A DNA stretch of 48,827 nucleotides from Flavobacteriales bacterium. GTDB taxonomy: Bacteria; Bacteroidota; Bacteroidia; Flavobacteriales_D; Sanyastnellaceae. Positions 5,229 through 48,807 of this stretch are shown piece after piece. The number at the start of each line of letters is the position of its first letter. The stretch's first letter is position 1. The notes under the pieces are model-generated. The model was given only the letters and a program-made list of their open reading frames with translations. It had not been told where the DNA came from and made no database searches. The stretch covers positions 1 through 48,827 of the forward strand of contig CANKYR010000005.1 of NCBI GenBank assembly GCA_947488195.1, in the 5' to 3' direction. The position numbers and the translations under genes were made by a program.

Positions 5229-6091
5229 GTATTATTCGACTTCGACTTCCTCAAAATGGGTTTGAAAAAAACTCCGCTGCTGCACGTACGTTTGTTTTGA
5301 GAAGTGAATTTCGGGGTGAATTGAATTTTGTCAGTTCTGATGAACATTACATGCAGTCCGTTGAAAAAGGAATTGCCCTTATTGAGAAGGCTCAGGCAAA
5401 GAAAGTAGTATTAAGTCGAATTGTACCCTTTCCTCATCAAGGCCTTACTGCTGAGGGTATTTTTAATTCGTTCAATGAAAAATTCCCCGATGCAGCCGTG
5501 TTCGCTTTTACAGATGAGAATAACGCGCATTGGATAGGAGCAACACCCGAATTGTTGTTTCGAAAACGAGGAAACTCTTATTCAACAATAAGTCTAGCTG
5601 GAACCCGAAAGGCCGGAACGATAGAAGAATGGGGAAAGAAAGAAATAGAAGAGCAGCATCTAGTTACGGAATTCATTCAACAGGAATTGAAAGTAATCGG
5701 TGCGAGAAATATTCAATGCAACGAATTGCATACGCGCAATGCAGGTTCTATTGAGCATTTGTGCAATGAAATTTCATTTGAATACAGTGGCGATTGGAAT
5801 GAAGTCATGAATACCCTCCATCCAACTCCTGCTGTCTGCGGAATGTCAAGGGAGCAAGCCAAGGGAATCATTGAAGACTTGGAAACACACGATAGGGAAT
5901 ACTATACGGGTCTCATTGGAATAGAACAGGGAGATAATGTCGATGTATATGTCATACTCCGTTGTTTGAAGTACAGCGAGGACCTGCTTCATGTTTTTGT
6001 CGGTGCTGGAATTACAGCAGAAAGTGTCCCAACGTTTGAAGCGCGAGAAACGCGTTGGAAGGCAGAATCGTTGACTAGCGTAATTTTTTAA
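5225..6091 (+). CDS. menF: Isochorismate synthase
   Basis: Chorismate-binding domain (KVVLSRIV, IGATPELLF, LAGTRKAG, HPTPAVCGMSREQA); operon context. Confidence 0.85.
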   Translation: MSIIRLRLPQNGFEKNSAAARTFVLRSEFRGELNFVSSDEHYMQSVEKGIALIEKAQAKKVVLSRIVPFPHQGLTAEGIFNSFNEKFPDAAVFAFTDENNAHWIGATPELLFRKRGNSYSTISLAGTRKAGTIEEWGKKEIEEQHLVTEFIQQELKVIGARNIQCNELHTRNAGSIEHLCNEISFEYSGDWNEVMNTLHPTPAVCGMSREQAKGIIEDLETHDREYYTGLIGIEQGDNVDVYVILRCLKYSEDLLHVFVGAGITAESVPTFEARETRWKAESLTSVIF

Positions 6092-35194: not shown

Positions 35195-38100
35195 ATGAAG
35201 AAATTTTTGAAATGGCCCGCTCTCGCGTTAGTGATTTTACTCCTCGCATTTCGTCCAATCCTAAAATCTTGCGAAGCATCTTTCGCAGAATCTCGCGCAG
35301 CGTCTTTCGAAGAATCTTGTAATACATCTTACGTAGAATCTTGCGTAGCATCTTGTGAAACATCTTTCGCAGAATCCTGGTCCGACAGCCTCATCAAGAC
35401 CCTTACTCTCGATCAGAAAATTGGACAACTCTTCATGGTTGCGGCATGGAGCGACGAAAAGAAAGAATCGTACAATCCAACGCAAATCGATGCCCTTATC
35501 AAAAATAATGGCATTGGTGGAATTATCTTCTTTCAAGGTGGACCCGTGCGTCAAGCGAAGTTGACGAATAGATTTCAAGCTAAATCAAAAATTCCTTTGC
35601 TCATTGGAATCGATGCAGAGTGGGGGTTAGGCATGCGTTTAGACAGCACCATCTCCTTCCCGCGTGCAATGACTTTGGGCGCTTCCATGGATGAAAAACT
35701 CATTTATGAATTTGGAAAGGAAGTTGCTCGTCAATGCAAGCGCATTGGCGTTCACATGAACTTTGCGCCGGTTGTCGACGTGAATTCAAATCCGAAAAAT
35801 CCTGTTATTTCGAATCGCTCATTCGGTGAAAATGCCGATCGTGTTACCGCCTGCGGAATGGCTTACATGAAGGGAATGCAGGACAATGGAGTGCTTGCCA
35901 ACGCAAAACATTTTCCTGGACACGGAGATACCGATGTCGATTCGCACAAAGATCTTCCTGTTGTAAACAAGAATTATGCACAGCTGTCTTCCAATGAATT
36001 CAAACCCTACAGAGCCTTGTTTGAAAATGGATTGGCAAGCGTAATGGTCGCGCATCTTTCGCTTCCCGAATTCGAAAAAGAAGCACATGTACCAAGTACA
36101 CTTTCAAAAAACATAATAACCGGATTGCTTCGCGATAGTTTGAAGTTCGAAGGATTGGTTCTCACCGATGCCATGAACATGGAAGGCGTTGCGAAATATT
36201 TCCCAGCGGGAGAGGCCGATGTACGGGCGCTTATCGCAGGAAACGATGTGGTGTTGTTCCCGTTGAATGTTCCGTTAGCCATTCAAAAAGTGAAAGAGGC
36301 CATTCAACAAGGACGAATCACTGAAGCTGAAATTACAGCGAAAGCACTAAAAGTGTTGAAGGCAAAAGAACGTGTTGGAGCGAATAAGTTCAAGACTATT
36401 CCAATTAAAGGAATTTCGAAAGATTTGAATTTGCCTTACGCCACAGCATTGCGCCGACGCTGCATTGAAAGTTCGATCACAGTAATTTCGGAAAGTAAAA
36501 TTCCTTACGAGGATTCGTATAAATGGCAAAAACCACTCGGTGTTGTAATTATTGGGGACGATGCTAATTGTGCATTCGCAAAGAGTATGGATCAATACAA
36601 GGCCGTTGAAATTCACGCTCTTTCAAAAGAATGTACAGAGCTAGATATTCACCATGTAATTTCAAAATTGAAAGAGAATTGCTCCGATGTGATTGTCGCG
36701 TTTTTAGGCACAACGAATAAGGCCAATACGAACTTCGGTATTACAACTCACGGAACGCATGCCGCTCATAAAATTGCAGAGCATTTCGCAACAACCGTTG
36801 TTATGTTCGCTTGTCCATATGCGCTTGAAAAATCAGAGTGGAAAGGGATTAACGATTTCGTTGTCGCATATCAGCCCGATGATTTGACGCAGCAAGTAAC
36901 CGCAGATGCCATTTGTGGTATCATTCCTTTTCAAGGTAAATTACCGGTTTCGGTTGGAAGCAGATTCAAAGAAGGACAAGGGAAAACCTTCCAGACAGCA
37001 GGAAGAATGCGATACCTTAAGCCTTCGCAAACGGGTTGGTTCAATTTTGTTTCGAATGGTTCGCAAACAAATGGCAATAACAGTGTTTATGTTGAAGACA
37101 TGATGGCGAATGCACCCACTGAAGTGGAGGGCACTGAACTGAACCTATTTTCCAAAGTAGATGTTATCGTTAAGGAAGGAATGGATCAGGGCGCATACCC
37201 TGGTTGCCGTGTTTTAATCGCGAAAGACGGCGTTATTCTTTACAACAAGAGTTTTGGACACCTAGACAAGGCGAAGACACAGAAAGTGGCTGAGAACTCA
37301 ATTTACGACCTTGCTTCTGTTACGAAAATGCTTTCAACAACAATGGCATTGATGAAGTTGGTAGATGAAGGGAAGATTGATGTCGAAAAAACAATTGGTG
37401 AATACATCGATTTCCCCGAAGGACATCCACATGCGAAAATGCAATTGAAGCGAATGCTGTCTCACACTGCCGGACTTCCAGCATGGAAAGATTTCACCAA
37501 TCTAACAGTGAATGGTGGAGAGTGGGATGGGAATTGTTTATCGAAGGAACACACCGATAAATGCAGCAATCCGGTTTGTGCAGATATGTGGACCACTAAG
37601 GAAATGTCGGATTCGATTTACAAGGAAATTTTAGAAGTGAAATTGACTCCCGATCAAGGCTACCTGTACAGTGATTTAGGATATTACTACTACAAAAAAT
37701 TGATTGAGAAAATTACGGGGATGCCCCTTGATTTCTATGTTTCTGAAACATTCTACAAGCCGATGGGACTGCGTTCTATGGGGTACAATCCAACAAAGAA
37801 TTGGCCAGTGAAAATGATTGCAGAAACTGAGACGGATTCGAAATGGAGACGTCAGGCGGTTCGCGGATATGTGCACGACCAAGGCGCTGCTTTAATGGGT
37901 GGGGTTGGCGGACACGCAGGTCTGTTTGGTAATGCGAACGATTGCGCAGCATTGATGCAATTGTGTTTGAACGATGGTCGATATGGAGCCAACGAATTCT
38001 TTCACCACGAAACAATGGATTTGTTTACCGCACGTCATTTCAAAGACAACAGAAGAGGCCTCGGTTTCGATAAACCAGGATTTACAAATTGGAGTGGTGC

Positions 38101-38305
38101 AACAGGACCATCGGCTAGCGATGAAAGTTTTGGACATTCAGGTTTTACAGGAACCCTATGTTGGGCAGATCCAGCGAACGGAACGGTATTCGTTTTCTTA
38201 AGCAATCGCAACTGTCCAAGTTCTGAAAATTGGAAGATTAACGACCTACGCATTCGTCCTAAAATTCAGGAGGAAATTTACAAACTGTTTCCTATTAAAC
38301 CGTAG
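35195..38305 (+). CDS. Glycoside hydrolase family 3 fused to a beta-lactamase-class (serine hydrolase) domain
   Basis: GH3: KHFPGHGDTDVDSHKDLP, VLTDAMNMEGV; C-terminal: YDLASVTKMLSTT (SxxK), YSDLGYY. Confidence 0.92.
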   Translation: MKKFLKWPALALVILLLAFRPILKSCEASFAESRAASFEESCNTSYVESCVASCETSFAESWSDSLIKTLTLDQKIGQLFMVAAWSDEKKESYNPTQIDALIKNNGIGGIIFFQGGPVRQAKLTNRFQAKSKIPLLIGIDAEWGLGMRLDSTISFPRAMTLGASMDEKLIYEFGKEVARQCKRIGVHMNFAPVVDVNSNPKNPVISNRSFGENADRVTACGMAYMKGMQDNGVLANAKHFPGHGDTDVDSHKDLPVVNKNYAQLSSNEFKPYRALFENGLASVMVAHLSLPEFEKEAHVPSTLSKNIITGLLRDSLKFEGLVLTDAMNMEGVAKYFPAGEADVRALIAGNDVVLFPLNVPLAIQKVKEAIQQGRITEAEITAKALKVLKAKERVGANKFKTIPIKGISKDLNLPYATALRRRCIESSITVISESKIPYEDSYKWQKPLGVVIIGDDANCAFAKSMDQYKAVEIHALSKECTELDIHHVISKLKENCSDVIVAFLGTTNKANTNFGITTHGTHAAHKIAEHFATTVVMFACPYALEKSEWKGINDFVVAYQPDDLTQQVTADAICGIIPFQGKLPVSVGSRFKEGQGKTFQTAGRMRYLKPSQTGWFNFVSNGSQTNGNNSVYVEDMMANAPTEVEGTELNLFSKVDVIVKEGMDQGAYPGCRVLIAKDGVILYNKSFGHLDKAKTQKVAENSIYDLASVTKMLSTTMALMKLVDEGKIDVEKTIGEYIDFPEGHPHAKMQLKRMLSHTAGLPAWKDFTNLTVNGGEWDGNCLSKEHTDKCSNPVCADMWTTKEMSDSIYKEILEVKLTPDQGYLYSDLGYYYYKKLIEKITGMPLDFYVSETFYKPMGLRSMGYNPTKNWPVKMIAETETDSKWRRQAVRGYVHDQGAALMGGVGGHAGLFGNANDCAALMQLCLNDGRYGANEFFHHETMDLFTARHFKDNRRGLGFDKPGFTNWSGATGPSASDESFGHSGFTGTLCWADPANGTVFVFLSNRNCPSSENWKINDLRIRPKIQEEIYKLFPIKP
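35267..35374 (+). repeat. Micro-hairpin tandem array A: 9 x 12 bp (TCT + 3-nt arm + 3-nt loop + complementary arm)
   Basis: TCT-TGC-GAA-GCA / TCT-TTC-GCA-GAA / TCT-CGC-GCA-GCG / TCT-TTC-GAA-GAA / TCT-TGT-AAT-ACA / TCT-TAC-GTA-GAA / TCT-TGC-GTA-GCA / TCT-TGT-GAA-ACA / TCT-TTC-GCA-GAA; in frame in the GH3 gene. Confidence 0.95.
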
Positions 38306-44364: not shown

Positions 44365-45465
44365 ATGAAATCGCAACGAATCGTCTTATTTTTTTTGGCT
44401 TGCGTTGCTTTTTTTTATTCTTGTTCGAATGGAAACCCTTCGGGCGAAGTGTCTATTCTTTTTCAACCCAAATACGCCAAAGGTTTTCGCGTAGTGAAAA
44501 GTGGAAACGACACCCTCATTCAGTTCCTGTCTCATTCTGATTCTCATTCTGTTTCTCATTCCGTTTCTCTTTCTCAAATCAATCCCGAAAGAATCGCCCT
44601 ACTCAGCACCACGCATACCTATTTCATAGATGCCTTAGATGGAATGAAAAACGTATGCGGAGTGTCCTACGCAGACCGCATTCAGCTTGGGAAATTACAA
44701 GAGCAAATTTCAAAAGGAACAACGCAGAATCTAACTAAAAACGGCGATGTGAATCTAGAAGATTTACTCATGTTGAATCCAACCGTGCTCTTCAGCGTTC
44801 CCTTCGAACCCACGCAGTATCAAACGAAATTGCCGAACTGTTATGTTATCCCAACCTCTGAATACCTGGAAGAGCATCCGTTGGGAAAGACGGAATGGAT
44901 TTATGTTTTTGGGTATGTCCTTCGGAAGAATGTATTGGCGAGAGAGTTGTTTTTGGAAATTGAAAACGCATACCTTGATGCGATGCAAGATTCTTCGAAA
45001 GATGTTTCACAAGATTCTACGAAAGATTCTACGAAAGATGTTTCACAAGGAAGTAGGAGGAAAGTTTTTTTTGCGACGAATAACGGAAGCGACTGGACCG
45101 TGGCGAATAACCAATCGTATTGGGCAATTTTGTTGAAAGATGCGGGGGCGGAATATGTGGGAGCAGAGGAAGGTGTTGGCAATTTGAATTTCGATAAAGA
45201 ACGCATGTTGTTCGCGTTGAATGATGCCGATGCGTATGGCGAGTTGGTGTATTTTCCGAATACATCCAACGTTTCACTCTCACAGCTGCATCCTGAATTC
45301 ATGCAGAGCGGTCCTTTTCAACATAAAAAAATATTTCTCTGCAACGCCGCAGACAACGGCTTCTTCGACAAAGCAATGCTAGAACCGCACATATTACTTC
45401 AAGAATTGAAAAAAGTGTTGAGCGATTCAACCTTTTCAGGAAACTATTTTCAACGAACACAATAG
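44365..45465 (+). CDS. BtuF/FepB-like ABC substrate-binding lipoprotein
   Basis: FFLACVAFFYSCSNG lipobox; PERIALLSTTHTYFIDALDGMKNVCGVSYADRI, NLEDLLMLNPTVLF. Confidence 0.8.
   Translation: MKSQRIVLFFLACVAFFYSCSNGNPSGEVSILFQPKYAKGFRVVKSGNDTLIQFLSHSDSHSVSHSVSLSQINPERIALLSTTHTYFIDALDGMKNVCGVSYADRIQLGKLQEQISKGTTQNLTKNGDVNLEDLLMLNPTVLFSVPFEPTQYQTKLPNCYVIPTSEYLEEHPLGKTEWIYVFGYVLRKNVLARELFLEIENAYLDAMQDSSKDVSQDSTKDSTKDVSQGSRRKVFFATNNGSDWTVANNQSYWAILLKDAGAEYVGAEEGVGNLNFDKERMLFALNDADAYGELVYFPNTSNVSLSQLHPEFMQSGPFQHKKIFLCNAADNGFFDKAMLEPHILLQELKKVLSDSTFSGNYFQRTQ
44530..44574 (+). repeat. 6-bp tandem array (TCT/TCC + NNN)
   Basis: TCT-CAT-TCT-GAT-TCT-CAT-TCT-GTT-TCT-CAT-TCC-GTT-TCT-CTT-TCT, encodes SHSDSHSVSHSVSLS. 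Confidence 0.9.
44979..45050 (-). repeat. Micro-hairpin tandem array B: 6 x 12 bp, same family as array A in opposite orientation
   Basis: Plus strand: TGC-GAT-GCA-AGA-TTC-TTC-GAA-AGA-TGT-TTC-ACA-AGA-TTC-TAC-GAA-AGA-TTC-TAC-GAA-AGA-TGT-TTC-ACA-AGG. Confidence 0.95.
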
Positions 45466-45490: not shown

Positions 45491-47131
45491 ATGGACTCGA
45501 AAGAATTGGAATTCAACAAGAACGAAGATAAAATGCTTCAGCGCATTGCCGAACTTCAACGTAGATTGAAAAAAATCTACGAAGGAGGAGGGAAGAAGCG
45601 CATGGATAAAGAGCATGAAAAGGGAAAGATGACTGCGCGTGAGCGAGTTGATTACCTTTTGGATAAAGATACTGAGCGCATTGAAGTTGGTGCTTTCGCA
45701 GGCGACGGAATGTACGCTGAACACGGCGGTTGTCCGGCTGGAGGAGTGGTGGTTGTCATGGGATATGTGTCGAAAAAGCTTTGCTTGGTTGTCGCGAATG
45801 ACGCTACAGTCAAGGCGGGCGCATGGTTTCCAATTACAGGAAAGAAAAACCTTCGTGCACAAGAGATTGCCATGGAGAATCACATCCCCATTATTTATTT
45901 GGTAGATAGTGCTGGGGTTTATTTGCCTTTGCAAGACGAGATCTTCCCCGACAAAGAACACTTCGGAAGAATATTCAGAAACAATGCGCGCATGAGTAGC
46001 ATGGGCATTCCGCAGTACGCCGCTGTAATGGGTAGTTGCGTTGCGGGTGGTGCGTACTTGCCTATTATGAGCGACGAAGCTTTAATTGTAGACAAGACAG
46101 GAAGCATTTTCCTTGCAGGTTCATATTTGGTGAAAGCCGCTATTGGCGAGGAAGTCGACAACGAAACACTCGGCGGCGCATCAACGCATTGCGAGATCAG
46201 TGGGGTGACAGATTACAAGGCGCTGAACGACAAAGACGCGTTAGATACCTTGAAGAAACTCTTAAGTTCACAAGGTAAAATTTCCAAAGATGCCGGCTTC
46301 GATCGCATTGCGGCGTCATTACCGAAACGCAAGATGGAAGACGTTTTGGGAATTCTTCCAACCGATAGAACCACTTCATACGAAGTGCGTGAAATGATTG
46401 AATGCTTGGTAGACAACAGTGAATACACAGAATACAAAGCCGAATACGGCAAGAGTATTGTGTGTGCCTACGGACGCATTAACGGTTGGTCGGTTGGAAT
46501 TGTGGCCAATCAGCGCGAGATTATTAAAAGCAAAAAGAACGGCATTCAGTTCGGTGGAGTCATTTACAGTGACAGCGCAGATAAAGCCGCGCGCTTCATC
46601 ATGAACTGCAATCAGAAAAACATCCCGTTGGTATTCCTTCAAGACGTTACCGGATTTATGGTTGGAAGTAAAAGTGAACACGGCGGAATTATAAAAGACG
46701 GAGCGAAGATGGTGAATGCGCAAGCCAACAGCGTTGTGCCGAAGTTCACCATTATTATGGGCAACAGCTACGGTGCTGGCAATTACGCCATGTGCGGAAA
46801 GGCCTACGATCCGCGATTGATTGTGGGTTGGCCAACAGCGCAAGTTGCGGTAATGGGCGGTGCGCAAGCCGCGAAGGTGTTGCTTCAAATTGAAGTGGCC
46901 TCTCTGAAAGGAAAAGGTGAAACCATTACACCTGAGCGTGAAGCAGAAATGTTCAACCGCATTAAATCGAAATACGACGAGCAGACTTCTCCGTATTACG
47001 CCGCCTCTCGCTTGTGGTTAGATGCTGTTATTGATCCGATAGATACGCGCAAATGGATAAGCCTTGGCCTGGAAGCCGCATCGAATGCCCCCGCTGAACG
47101 TGCCTATTCGGTTGGAGTTCTTCAAACATGA
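45491..47131 (+). CDS. Acyl-CoA carboxylase carboxyltransferase (beta) subunit
   Basis: KMTARERVDYLLD, DSAGVYLPLQDEIFPD, GNSYGAGNYAMCGKAYDPRLIVGWPTAQVAVMGGAQAAKVL. Confidence 0.93.
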   Translation: MDSKELEFNKNEDKMLQRIAELQRRLKKIYEGGGKKRMDKEHEKGKMTARERVDYLLDKDTERIEVGAFAGDGMYAEHGGCPAGGVVVVMGYVSKKLCLVVANDATVKAGAWFPITGKKNLRAQEIAMENHIPIIYLVDSAGVYLPLQDEIFPDKEHFGRIFRNNARMSSMGIPQYAAVMGSCVAGGAYLPIMSDEALIVDKTGSIFLAGSYLVKAAIGEEVDNETLGGASTHCEISGVTDYKALNDKDALDTLKKLLSSQGKISKDAGFDRIAASLPKRKMEDVLGILPTDRTTSYEVREMIECLVDNSEYTEYKAEYGKSIVCAYGRINGWSVGIVANQREIIKSKKNGIQFGGVIYSDSADKAARFIMNCNQKNIPLVFLQDVTGFMVGSKSEHGGIIKDGAKMVNAQANSVVPKFTIIMGNSYGAGNYAMCGKAYDPRLIVGWPTAQVAVMGGAQAAKVLLQIEVASLKGKGETITPEREAEMFNRIKSKYDEQTSPYYAASRLWLDAVIDPIDTRKWISLGLEAASNAPAERAYSVGVLQT

Positions 47132-48807
47132 AAAGAAAGTTAGATTATTTTTTTTCGGGTGAAGGGAAGTGGCTTCGCCGCGTCTTGCTTGCAGCAGCTG
47201 CTGTGCGCTTAATTGCTGCTGCTTTTTCGGAAGGGTATCTCATGAGCGACGATCATTTCTTGGCCGTTGAACCGGTTTCTTCATGGGTGCACGGAGAGAA
47301 TTACCACAACTGGTTTCCCAATGAATACAACCACACCGATCACGCCCAGCCCTTCAGTTATGCGTATTATTTTTTGAATTTCGTAATCCTGAAGTTCTGT
47401 GCTGTAATTGGAATTCTGAATCCGTTTATCCAGGCCTTTGTTCTTCGCTTGGCGCATGCCGCCTTGAGTTTATGGGGAGTTTACTTATTTGTAAAACTCG
47501 CTGAACGTCTCATTTCATCGGTCACCTGGCGCATGTATGCCATTTGGTTCTGGGTATTCGGAGGAGTAGTCACTGTTTTCAGCGTTCATCAATTGGTTGA
47601 AACCGCCTGCATACCTTTTGTGTTGTTGGCCTATTTGTATGTCTTGAAGTATTTCGAGCGTGAGCGAATGAGCGCACTAGTCATTGCTGCTATCGCATTT
47701 TCTTTTTCGGTTGGAATGCGTTACCAATTGGTCTTCTTCCCCCTCACGTTGGGAATGTATTTGTTGTGGAAACGCAAGTGGAGTGGGGCGTTGCTCTTCG
47801 GAATCTTCTTCACCCTTGGCTTCGCTCTCACCCAAATCGACAACCTGTTGTTCTGGCACAAACCCATTTATCAGCATTTACTCGACTATCAATCCTACAA
47901 CACCTCGCACTTCGCCGATTACCCGAGTAATGTTTTTTCATACCTGGCTTTAATCACGTATTACATCTTTCCAGTTGTAACAATTGTTTTCCTAATCTCC
48001 CTTCGCCGCAGGCCCTCGCACGAAGTGCCCTCGTCTGAAAGACCCTCGTCCAACGGACCCTCGCATCTTGTGCCCTCGTCCGCAGGACCTTCGTCTATTA
48101 GACCTTCGCACGCAGTGCAAATATTCATCGGTGTAGCAATCTTCATTGTGTTTCACCTAATCTTTCCGAACAGACAAGAAAGGTTCTTACTTCCCGCAGT
48201 CCCATTCGTGTTGTTATTGATGATAAGAACAATTTCCAAGCGCTATTCGTACTCCGCACCCTCGCACGAAGTGCCCTCGTCTGAAAGACCCTCGTCCTTT
48301 GGACCCTCGCATCTTGTGCCCTCGTCTGAAAGACCCTCGTCCACCGGACCTTCGCACATCGTGCACCAGGCCATGCGCTGGTCAATCTACCTCTCCATCA
48401 TCTACACCGTTAGTTATTCCTTTTACATCCCAAAATCAAAATACCTCGAAGCTTCAAAAGCACTATACGAACGCGGCGATTTTCAAAATGTGGTTATCGA
48501 CAATTGGAAAGGAGAGGAGTCGGTTTGGTTGCCGATGCATTATGTTGGGAAATTCGTGCATCCGCTTTCCATGACTTCGTCGAAGACCATTGATCAACTG
48601 AAACAGCAGATCACCCATCAACCTTATTACGATTCGAAACGCCTTCCAGCTCCTGCACCCAACTACCTCATAATCTGGGGTAGGGAAGAGGCATATCCTC
48701 GCGCTAAACAACACGAAGAATGCGGCTTCCAACTCCAGCGTCTTTCTCCTGCTCAAAGCGAAAAAGAAAACGGTTTTGCATTGTATTCTCTCGATTTTTT
48801 GCCTTAG
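47128..48807 (+). CDS. GT22 (Alg9/PIG-B)-like polytopic glycosyltransferase
   Basis: Polytopic; early SDDHF motif; FPNRQERFLLPAVPFVLLL (HxERF-like). Confidence 0.7.
   Translation: MKRKLDYFFSGEGKWLRRVLLAAAAVRLIAAAFSEGYLMSDDHFLAVEPVSSWVHGENYHNWFPNEYNHTDHAQPFSYAYYFLNFVILKFCAVIGILNPFIQAFVLRLAHAALSLWGVYLFVKLAERLISSVTWRMYAIWFWVFGGVVTVFSVHQLVETACIPFVLLAYLYVLKYFERERMSALVIAAIAFSFSVGMRYQLVFFPLTLGMYLLWKRKWSGALLFGIFFTLGFALTQIDNLLFWHKPIYQHLLDYQSYNTSHFADYPSNVFSYLALITYYIFPVVTIVFLISLRRRPSHEVPSSERPSSNGPSHLVPSSAGPSSIRPSHAVQIFIGVAIFIVFHLIFPNRQERFLLPAVPFVLLLMIRTISKRYSYSAPSHEVPSSERPSSFGPSHLVPSSERPSSTGPSHIVHQAMRWSIYLSIIYTVSYSFYIPKSKYLEASKALYERGDFQNVVIDNWKGEESVWLPMHYVGKFVHPLSMTSSKTIDQLKQQITHQPYYDSKRLPAPAPNYLIIWGREEAYPRAKQHEECGFQLQRLSPAQSEKENGFALYSLDFLP
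48013..48117 (+). repeat. Micro-hairpin tandem array C: 7 x 15 bp (CCCTCG + 9-nt micropalindrome)
   Basis: CCCTCG followed by CAC-GAA-GTG / TCT-GAA-AGA / TCC-AAC-GGA / CAT-CTT-GTG / TCC-GCA-GGA / TCT-ATT-AGA / CAC-GCA-GTG (last two spacers CCTTCG). Confidence 0.95.
48259..48363 (+). repeat. Micro-hairpin tandem array D: 7 x 15 bp, sister of array C
   Basis: CCCTCG followed by CAC-GAA-GTG / TCT-GAA-AGA / TCC-TTT-GGA / CAT-CTT-GTG / TCT-GAA-AGA / TCC-ACC-GGA / CAC-ATC-GTG (last spacer CCTTCG). Confidence 0.95.

Follow-up and report, generated by a model that had tools for sequence, protein, structure and literature searches.

We describe a genus-specific, structure-conserved repeat DNA in a Flavobacteriales bacterium of a freshwater genus in the family Sanyastnellaceae, built of constant spacers and covarying triloop hairpins, and we attribute its palindromic units, with a little more confidence than doubt, to fold-back (template-switch) synthesis. 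Observed in this DNA and its relatives are the anatomy of the units, the covariation of their arms, a strand polarity, several spacer classes, the way the arrays are distributed, their in-frame presence within genes, and sites that are filled in some species and empty in others. The window is the whole stretch analyzed, i.e., 48,827 nucleotides of contig CANKYR010000005.1 (assembly GCA_947488195.1), and its arrays are listed in Table 1.

Each unit of the 12-bp class is a YCT spacer followed by a hairpin with two 3-base arms, the second being the reverse complement of the first, around a loop of three bases. Array B, re-read from the minus strand (45050-44979), runs CCT-TGTGAAACA, TCT-TTCGTAGAA, TCT-TTCGTAGAA, TCT-TGTGAAACA, TCT-TTCGAAGAA, TCT-TGCATCGCA, with GNA loops in five units and an ATC loop in one. 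Its sequence, coordinates, and orientation are as the first-pass annotation had given them, and that annotation was also right that array B matches array A with one difference in 25, that the two arrays have opposite orientations relative to their host genes, that five of the six array B loops read GNA on the TCT strand, and that the array B palindromes are out of phase with codons. Array B is antisense to its host gene, which has orthologues in seven other genus members, and encodes the peptide QDSSKDVSQDSTKDSTKDVSQ in a linker of the BtuF-like protein. In array A, eight of nine stems are fully paired, the unit at 35327 (TAC-GTA-GAA) having one mismatch. A second class, of 15-bp CCCTCG units, had been overlooked; the C1 hairpins are CAC-GAA-GTG, TCT-GAA-AGA, TCC-AAC-GGA, CAT-CTT-GTG (imperfect), TCC-GCA-GGA, TCT-ATT-AGA, and CAC-GCA-GTG, and the peptide segments from C1 and C2 are of the PSSERPSSNGPSH type. 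Period-12 runs of three in-phase 3-3-3 palindromes start at eight window positions against 0.19 expected, with none at periods 9-11, 13, or 14, and no curated RNA family of Rfam matched within the window. The BtuF-like gene also holds another 12-bp repeat at 44530-44576, TCTCATTCTGTT, which encodes SHSDSHSVSHSV and is without the hairpin architecture.

Table 1. Mini-hairpin arrays of the window and the genes that carry them
Feature	Position	Strand	Description
Array A	35267..35374	+	Nine units, YCT class; sense to host gene, directly after signal peptide
Array A host gene	35195..38305	+	GH3 glycosidase fused to beta-lactamase-family domain (PF00933, PF00144)
Array B	44979..45050	-	Six 12-bp units, YCT spacer plus 3-3-3 mini-hairpin; 6/6 stems paired
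Array B host gene	44365..45465	+	Periplasmic binding protein (Peripla_BP_2, PF01497), lipoprotein-like
Array C1	48013..48117	+	Seven 15-bp units, spacer CCCTCG/CCTTCG plus 3-3-3 hairpins
Array C2	48259..48363	+	15-bp class like C1, spacers CCCTCG/CCTTCG
C1 and C2 host gene	47128..48807	+	PMT_2-like membrane glycosyltransferase (PF13231, score below its cut-off)

The repeat was found in one genus only. A search for the single 12-mer gave 40 matches versus 29 by chance, which is weak alone; what is significant is the tandem covarying arrangement. A two-unit pattern matched 131 times in the bacterium's own genome versus five times for the reversed control, and eight of nine genus members were rich in it, with other genera at background. 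A scan of 85,488 species returned 62 stretches in seven Flavobacteriales metagenome-assembled genomes (MAGs), all probably of this genus, and no others. Several of them are titled Chryseobacterium gleum; these MAGs (records CAMCVP, CAMCUG, CAMDFE) carry the repeat, group with the window's genus, and appear mislabeled. When any tandem covarying mini-hairpin was sought without bias, 379 kb of G003-G006 gave 22 arrays (shuffle, 0.4), one of which looks spurious; some of the stretches scanned had been chosen for orthologues of window genes. This search found no array in the 387 kb sampled of G007, a member of the same genus, and in 346 kb from 20 further genera within the family it gave one low-quality match (shuffle, 0.8). 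The genus offers a clean comparison of array-rich species with array-free G007, and so of what starts or stops such repeats. A viral origin was rejected, the single viral-contig match being a chance one without an array. No earlier description of such arrays was found in the literature, most subscription journals lying outside the coverage.

Covariation was assessed on arrays chosen by YCT spacers alone, excluding units that overlapped the query pattern to guard against circularity. Fully paired stems were found in 406 of 516 units and comprised 16 stem types, versus 79 on average and 101 at most with shuffled 3' arms, and the loops of these 406 units, read on the YCT strand, were GNA in 235 and TNC in 21 (~11-fold). 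Between near-identical orthologous arrays, 9.6% of loop, 4.0% of spacer, and 1.7% of stem sites differed, the stem changes (two compensatory, two breaking) being too few to count corrections. Stems are paired equally well in sense, antisense, and intergenic arrays (326/345 intergenic units), and GNA loops make up 76%, 76%, and 68% of these, respectively, with TNC at 3% in each, the shares by context including units fixed by the query. Pairing, the bias toward GNA, and the polarity of the strands are alike in all gene contexts, so an explanation from codons or mRNA fails; the polarity is a property of the DNA element, and mRNA-level structure is ruled out by its indifference to gene direction. 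Mismatches on the GNA strand were T-G wobbles in 16 cases versus the mirror A-C in six (p=0.05), a suggestive excess of the kind that hairpin formation on the GNA strand would produce. Nearest-neighbor folding of arrays A and B predicted no more structure than in shuffled sequence (z -0.4 to +0.2), with parameters that may omit a GNA bonus, and a stable global fold of the arrays was not seen in these predictions.

Genes and gaps are both occupied. Intergenic positions account for 43 of 110 array sites (39%) versus 8.6% of random placements, and genic arrays are found in either orientation and in each of the six frames, not in the single orientation and frame that the first-pass annotation would have expected of a protein repeat. 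Among genic arrays, 32 of 46 lie in the one antisense frame encoding hydrophilic D/G-x-S/A-Q/K, a count that is approximate given simple longest-ORF gene calls and that implies strong filtering by the encoded peptide. Array hosts across the genus include an amino-acid (aspartate) kinase, AroE, phosphoglucomutase (PGM), GT2, an acetyl-CoA-synthetase-like (AcsA-like) protein, and DUF4846 proteins; all but the last of these, as well as the BtuF-like and GH3 genes, are conserved genes with in-frame arrays, and no host protein gave a DUF285-type Pfam match. The earlier proposal of a nucleic-acid element and not a protein motif is hence borne out by pairing and GNA polarity that are independent of gene direction, with frames filtered at the protein level.

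The hairpin rule is common to unrelated spacers (CCCTCG, TCAT, GGAAT, ATTAGT). The CCCTCG class extends beyond the window to C18 and C76 of the own genome and to five other genus members, the counted matches including one plain repeat (G005:C19). Seven of nine genus members carry the TCAT class, mostly with 3-5 bp stems, and in 25 of its 29 distinct hairpins the first base pair left free by the query is complementary. Arrays of this class have CC...GG stems of 3-5 bp, sometimes 6 bp (L093 3323-3556; L201 18577-18612; L091 ~5772-5870). We also observed small covarying triloop arrays with the spacers ATCTT, GGAAT, ATTAGT, ACATTAGT, and GTTTG (L096 7651-7702; L112 9623-9660; L050 3614-3653; L201 4107-4167 and 5961-6012). 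In bipolar arrays, polarity switches from AGR to YCT 37 times and in the reverse direction twice. Left-right spacer pairing was considered for these arrays and rejected, as positional symmetry is absent (115 versus 114.2 by within-side shuffle) and only the spacer type is shared; mirror units were inverted copies in three of 112 cases. An apex, AGGACGCTTCGCGTAGCGACCT, joins AGR and YCT halves at several sites in several species (e.g., L041 304-422, L052 1776-1906, L073 1744-1850).

Orthologous sites are often common across species, with arrays that vary in how long they are, in their stems and orientation, and in the type of spacer. At the btuF site, G000 has six AGA-type units, G004 a tandem GAMQ/GHSE array, G005 an AGG-to-CCT bipolar array, and G007 nothing comparable; an acetyl-CoA-synthetase-like site is filled in G005 and G006 and empty in G000 and G007; and one intergenic site holds YCT/AGR arrays in four species and TCAT hairpins with 4-6 bp stems in G005, and is empty in G000. 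Some orthologous arrays show no difference over 126-201 bp, inside a mosaic whose identity is 80-100%, which suggests recombination between species. Identity between genus members is similarly patchy, from ~73-80% to 100% along a few kb, in L114 versus L093 and in L113 versus L088, which suggests that such recombination is frequent.

From this pattern we infer fold-back synthesis, a selfish or neutral status, and a mode of spread to new sites. The hairpin would belong to one DNA strand, that with the GNA loops; transient single-stranded DNA at the fork would fold at the triloops, and a polymerase would copy one arm from the other by intrastrand template switching (quasipalindrome correction), which would keep the arms complementary regardless of their sequence. 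Slippage and recombination would add, delete, and exchange units, and bipolar arrays would arise by fold-back. New arrays would appear, and existing ones turn over, quickly at places that tolerate extra DNA, i.e., in intergenic gaps and in surface loops or linkers of proteins, genic sites being admitted when the frame yields a hydrophilic peptide; no host benefit would be required. Template switching creates and maintains hairpin stems, as proposed for RNA genes (PMC8794818), Escherichia coli quasipalindromes are perfected by it (PMC7202029), and short DNA hairpins with GNA triloops are unusually stable (PMC10527192, PMC6479982). Counting against this mechanism are folding energies no better than those of shuffled sequence, the small number of stem changes between orthologues, the scarcity of the loop inversions that template switching predicts (TNC loops, only ~5%), the spread of one class to many sites, for which slippage alone does not account, and repair genes that give no reason for the restriction to one genus.

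Among repair genes, MutS is present in all genus members (mismatch repair intact), XseA is patchy, and SbcD (TIGR00619) is above cut-off in two of 30 relatives and in none of the genus, with control genomes scoring. Loss of this hairpin nuclease may be a permissive background; its absence is family-wide and so does not account for the restriction to one genus, and repair loss as a genus-specific cause was rejected given the presence of MutS, the absence of SbcD across most of the family, and the patchy XseA. No reverse transcriptase was found in the genus. It is also conceivable, albeit doubtful in our view, that this is a categorically new repeat that propagates structure rather than sequence, with several unrelated spacer classes of the genus all forming tandem chains of triloop mini-hairpins that are arbitrary in sequence yet self-complementary, a dedicated DNA-synthesis or fold-back activity writing palindromic units into genes.

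The main rival to template switching is selection for a DNA-binding role, under which the arrays would bind a hairpin- or nucleoid-binding protein (or serve another function of DNA structure) and purifying selection would keep the arms complementary. One loop type on one strand, stems that change more slowly than loops, constant spacers, a constant divergent polarity, and sites common across species would all suit such an element. However, arm sequence and spacer class vary freely from unit to unit and from site to site, a given site may have its whole array exchanged or missing in another species, G007 lacks arrays in the sequence sampled, and intergenic arrays are not clearly more common in convergent than in divergent gaps, such that we regard a selected element as unlikely.

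Less likely still are REP-like miniature transposons, a tag and hairpin that a Y1 (RAYT/IS200-type) transposase would mobilize in single-stranded form. The transposase domain PF01797 is found in four of nine genus members but in neither G000 (85% complete) nor the array-rich, 96%-complete G003, and the lack of a reverse transcriptase is a further point against mobilization. The arrays are like REPs (PMC3733652) in joining a tag to a hairpin, in the orientation of inverted dimers, and in being inserted within genes, but not in their stems (3-5 bp versus 5-13 bp) or in their tags, GTAG and CGTC being absent. A protein-level repeat, in which hydrophilic linkers (DxSQ/GxSE) are selected and palindromes are a by-product of codon use, would explain the single frame that dominates genic arrays, but we think it very improbable given the equally well-paired intergenic arrays, the use of both strands and several frames with a GNA polarity blind to gene direction, and the unrelated peptides from other spacer classes. 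Finally, every carrier is a MAG, but an assembly or binning artifact can practically be dismissed, as orthologous arrays are exact between independent MAGs (201 bp identical in G000 and G004), open reading frames are present, and the flanks can be aligned.

If fold-back synthesis is right, the arrays would be natural DNA conserved in its base-paired form but free in its sequence, down to single triloops and inside core enzymes. Hairpin-driven mutation could then be watched shaping proteins, and there would be a direct test of whether replication alone keeps hairpin arms complementary, which is debated for RNA and REP evolution.

Several known systems share parts of this design. Like REP, BIME, and REPIN sequences (GTAG- or CGTC-tagged palindromes, PMC3733652), the arrays have a short tag beside a hairpin, several families distinguished by stem and loop, a preferred orientation of inverted pairs (here the 37 versus two switches), and intergenic sites with some intragenic copies, REPs being mostly intergenic. 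Unlike REPs, which are 20-40 bp long with 5-13 bp stems of family-specific sequence, they are tandem units of 12-15 bp with stems of 3-5 bp that vary between neighbors; the GTAG/CGTC tag and its listed variants are absent, the spacers being YCT, CCCTCG/CCTTCG, TCAT, GGAAT, and ATTAGT, and, unlike in GTAG REP families, neither G000 nor G003 yielded a RAYT. Rickettsia palindromic elements (RPE; PMC10969869) and the coding palindromes of Wolbachia and Methanocaldococcus jannaschii are likewise in-frame palindromic DNA in protein-tolerated places of housekeeping genes, but RPEs are ~150 bp, dispersed, and encode a conserved peptide, whereas the tandem 12-15 bp units here encode peptides that vary by frame and class. 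PARCELs (palindromic amphipathic repeat coding elements, PMC2996958) are also tandem palindromic coding repeats in bacteria, but have 75-bp units with a conserved 25-residue DUF285 motif, whereas the arrays here have periods of 12-15, lack a protein motif, and lie in many cases between genes. Quasipalindrome or template-switch mutations (PMC7202029, PMC8794818) make inverted-repeat arms perfectly complementary, with stems possible in one event, but are known as scattered changes, in contrast to genus-wide tandem arrays with constant spacers. The bacterial tandem repeats of Subirana and Messeguer (PMC8161180) share a fixed unit size and variable sequence, but their units are 20-21 or 52 nt, and no hairpin or palindrome rule turned up in the searched text. 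As the arrays lack the defining tag, stem length, unit size, and transposase, we do not count them as members of the REP or RPE families; we class them as a variant of intragenic palindromic repeat DNA distinct from both, and see in them a sign of a little-known kind of repeat DNA driven by structure.
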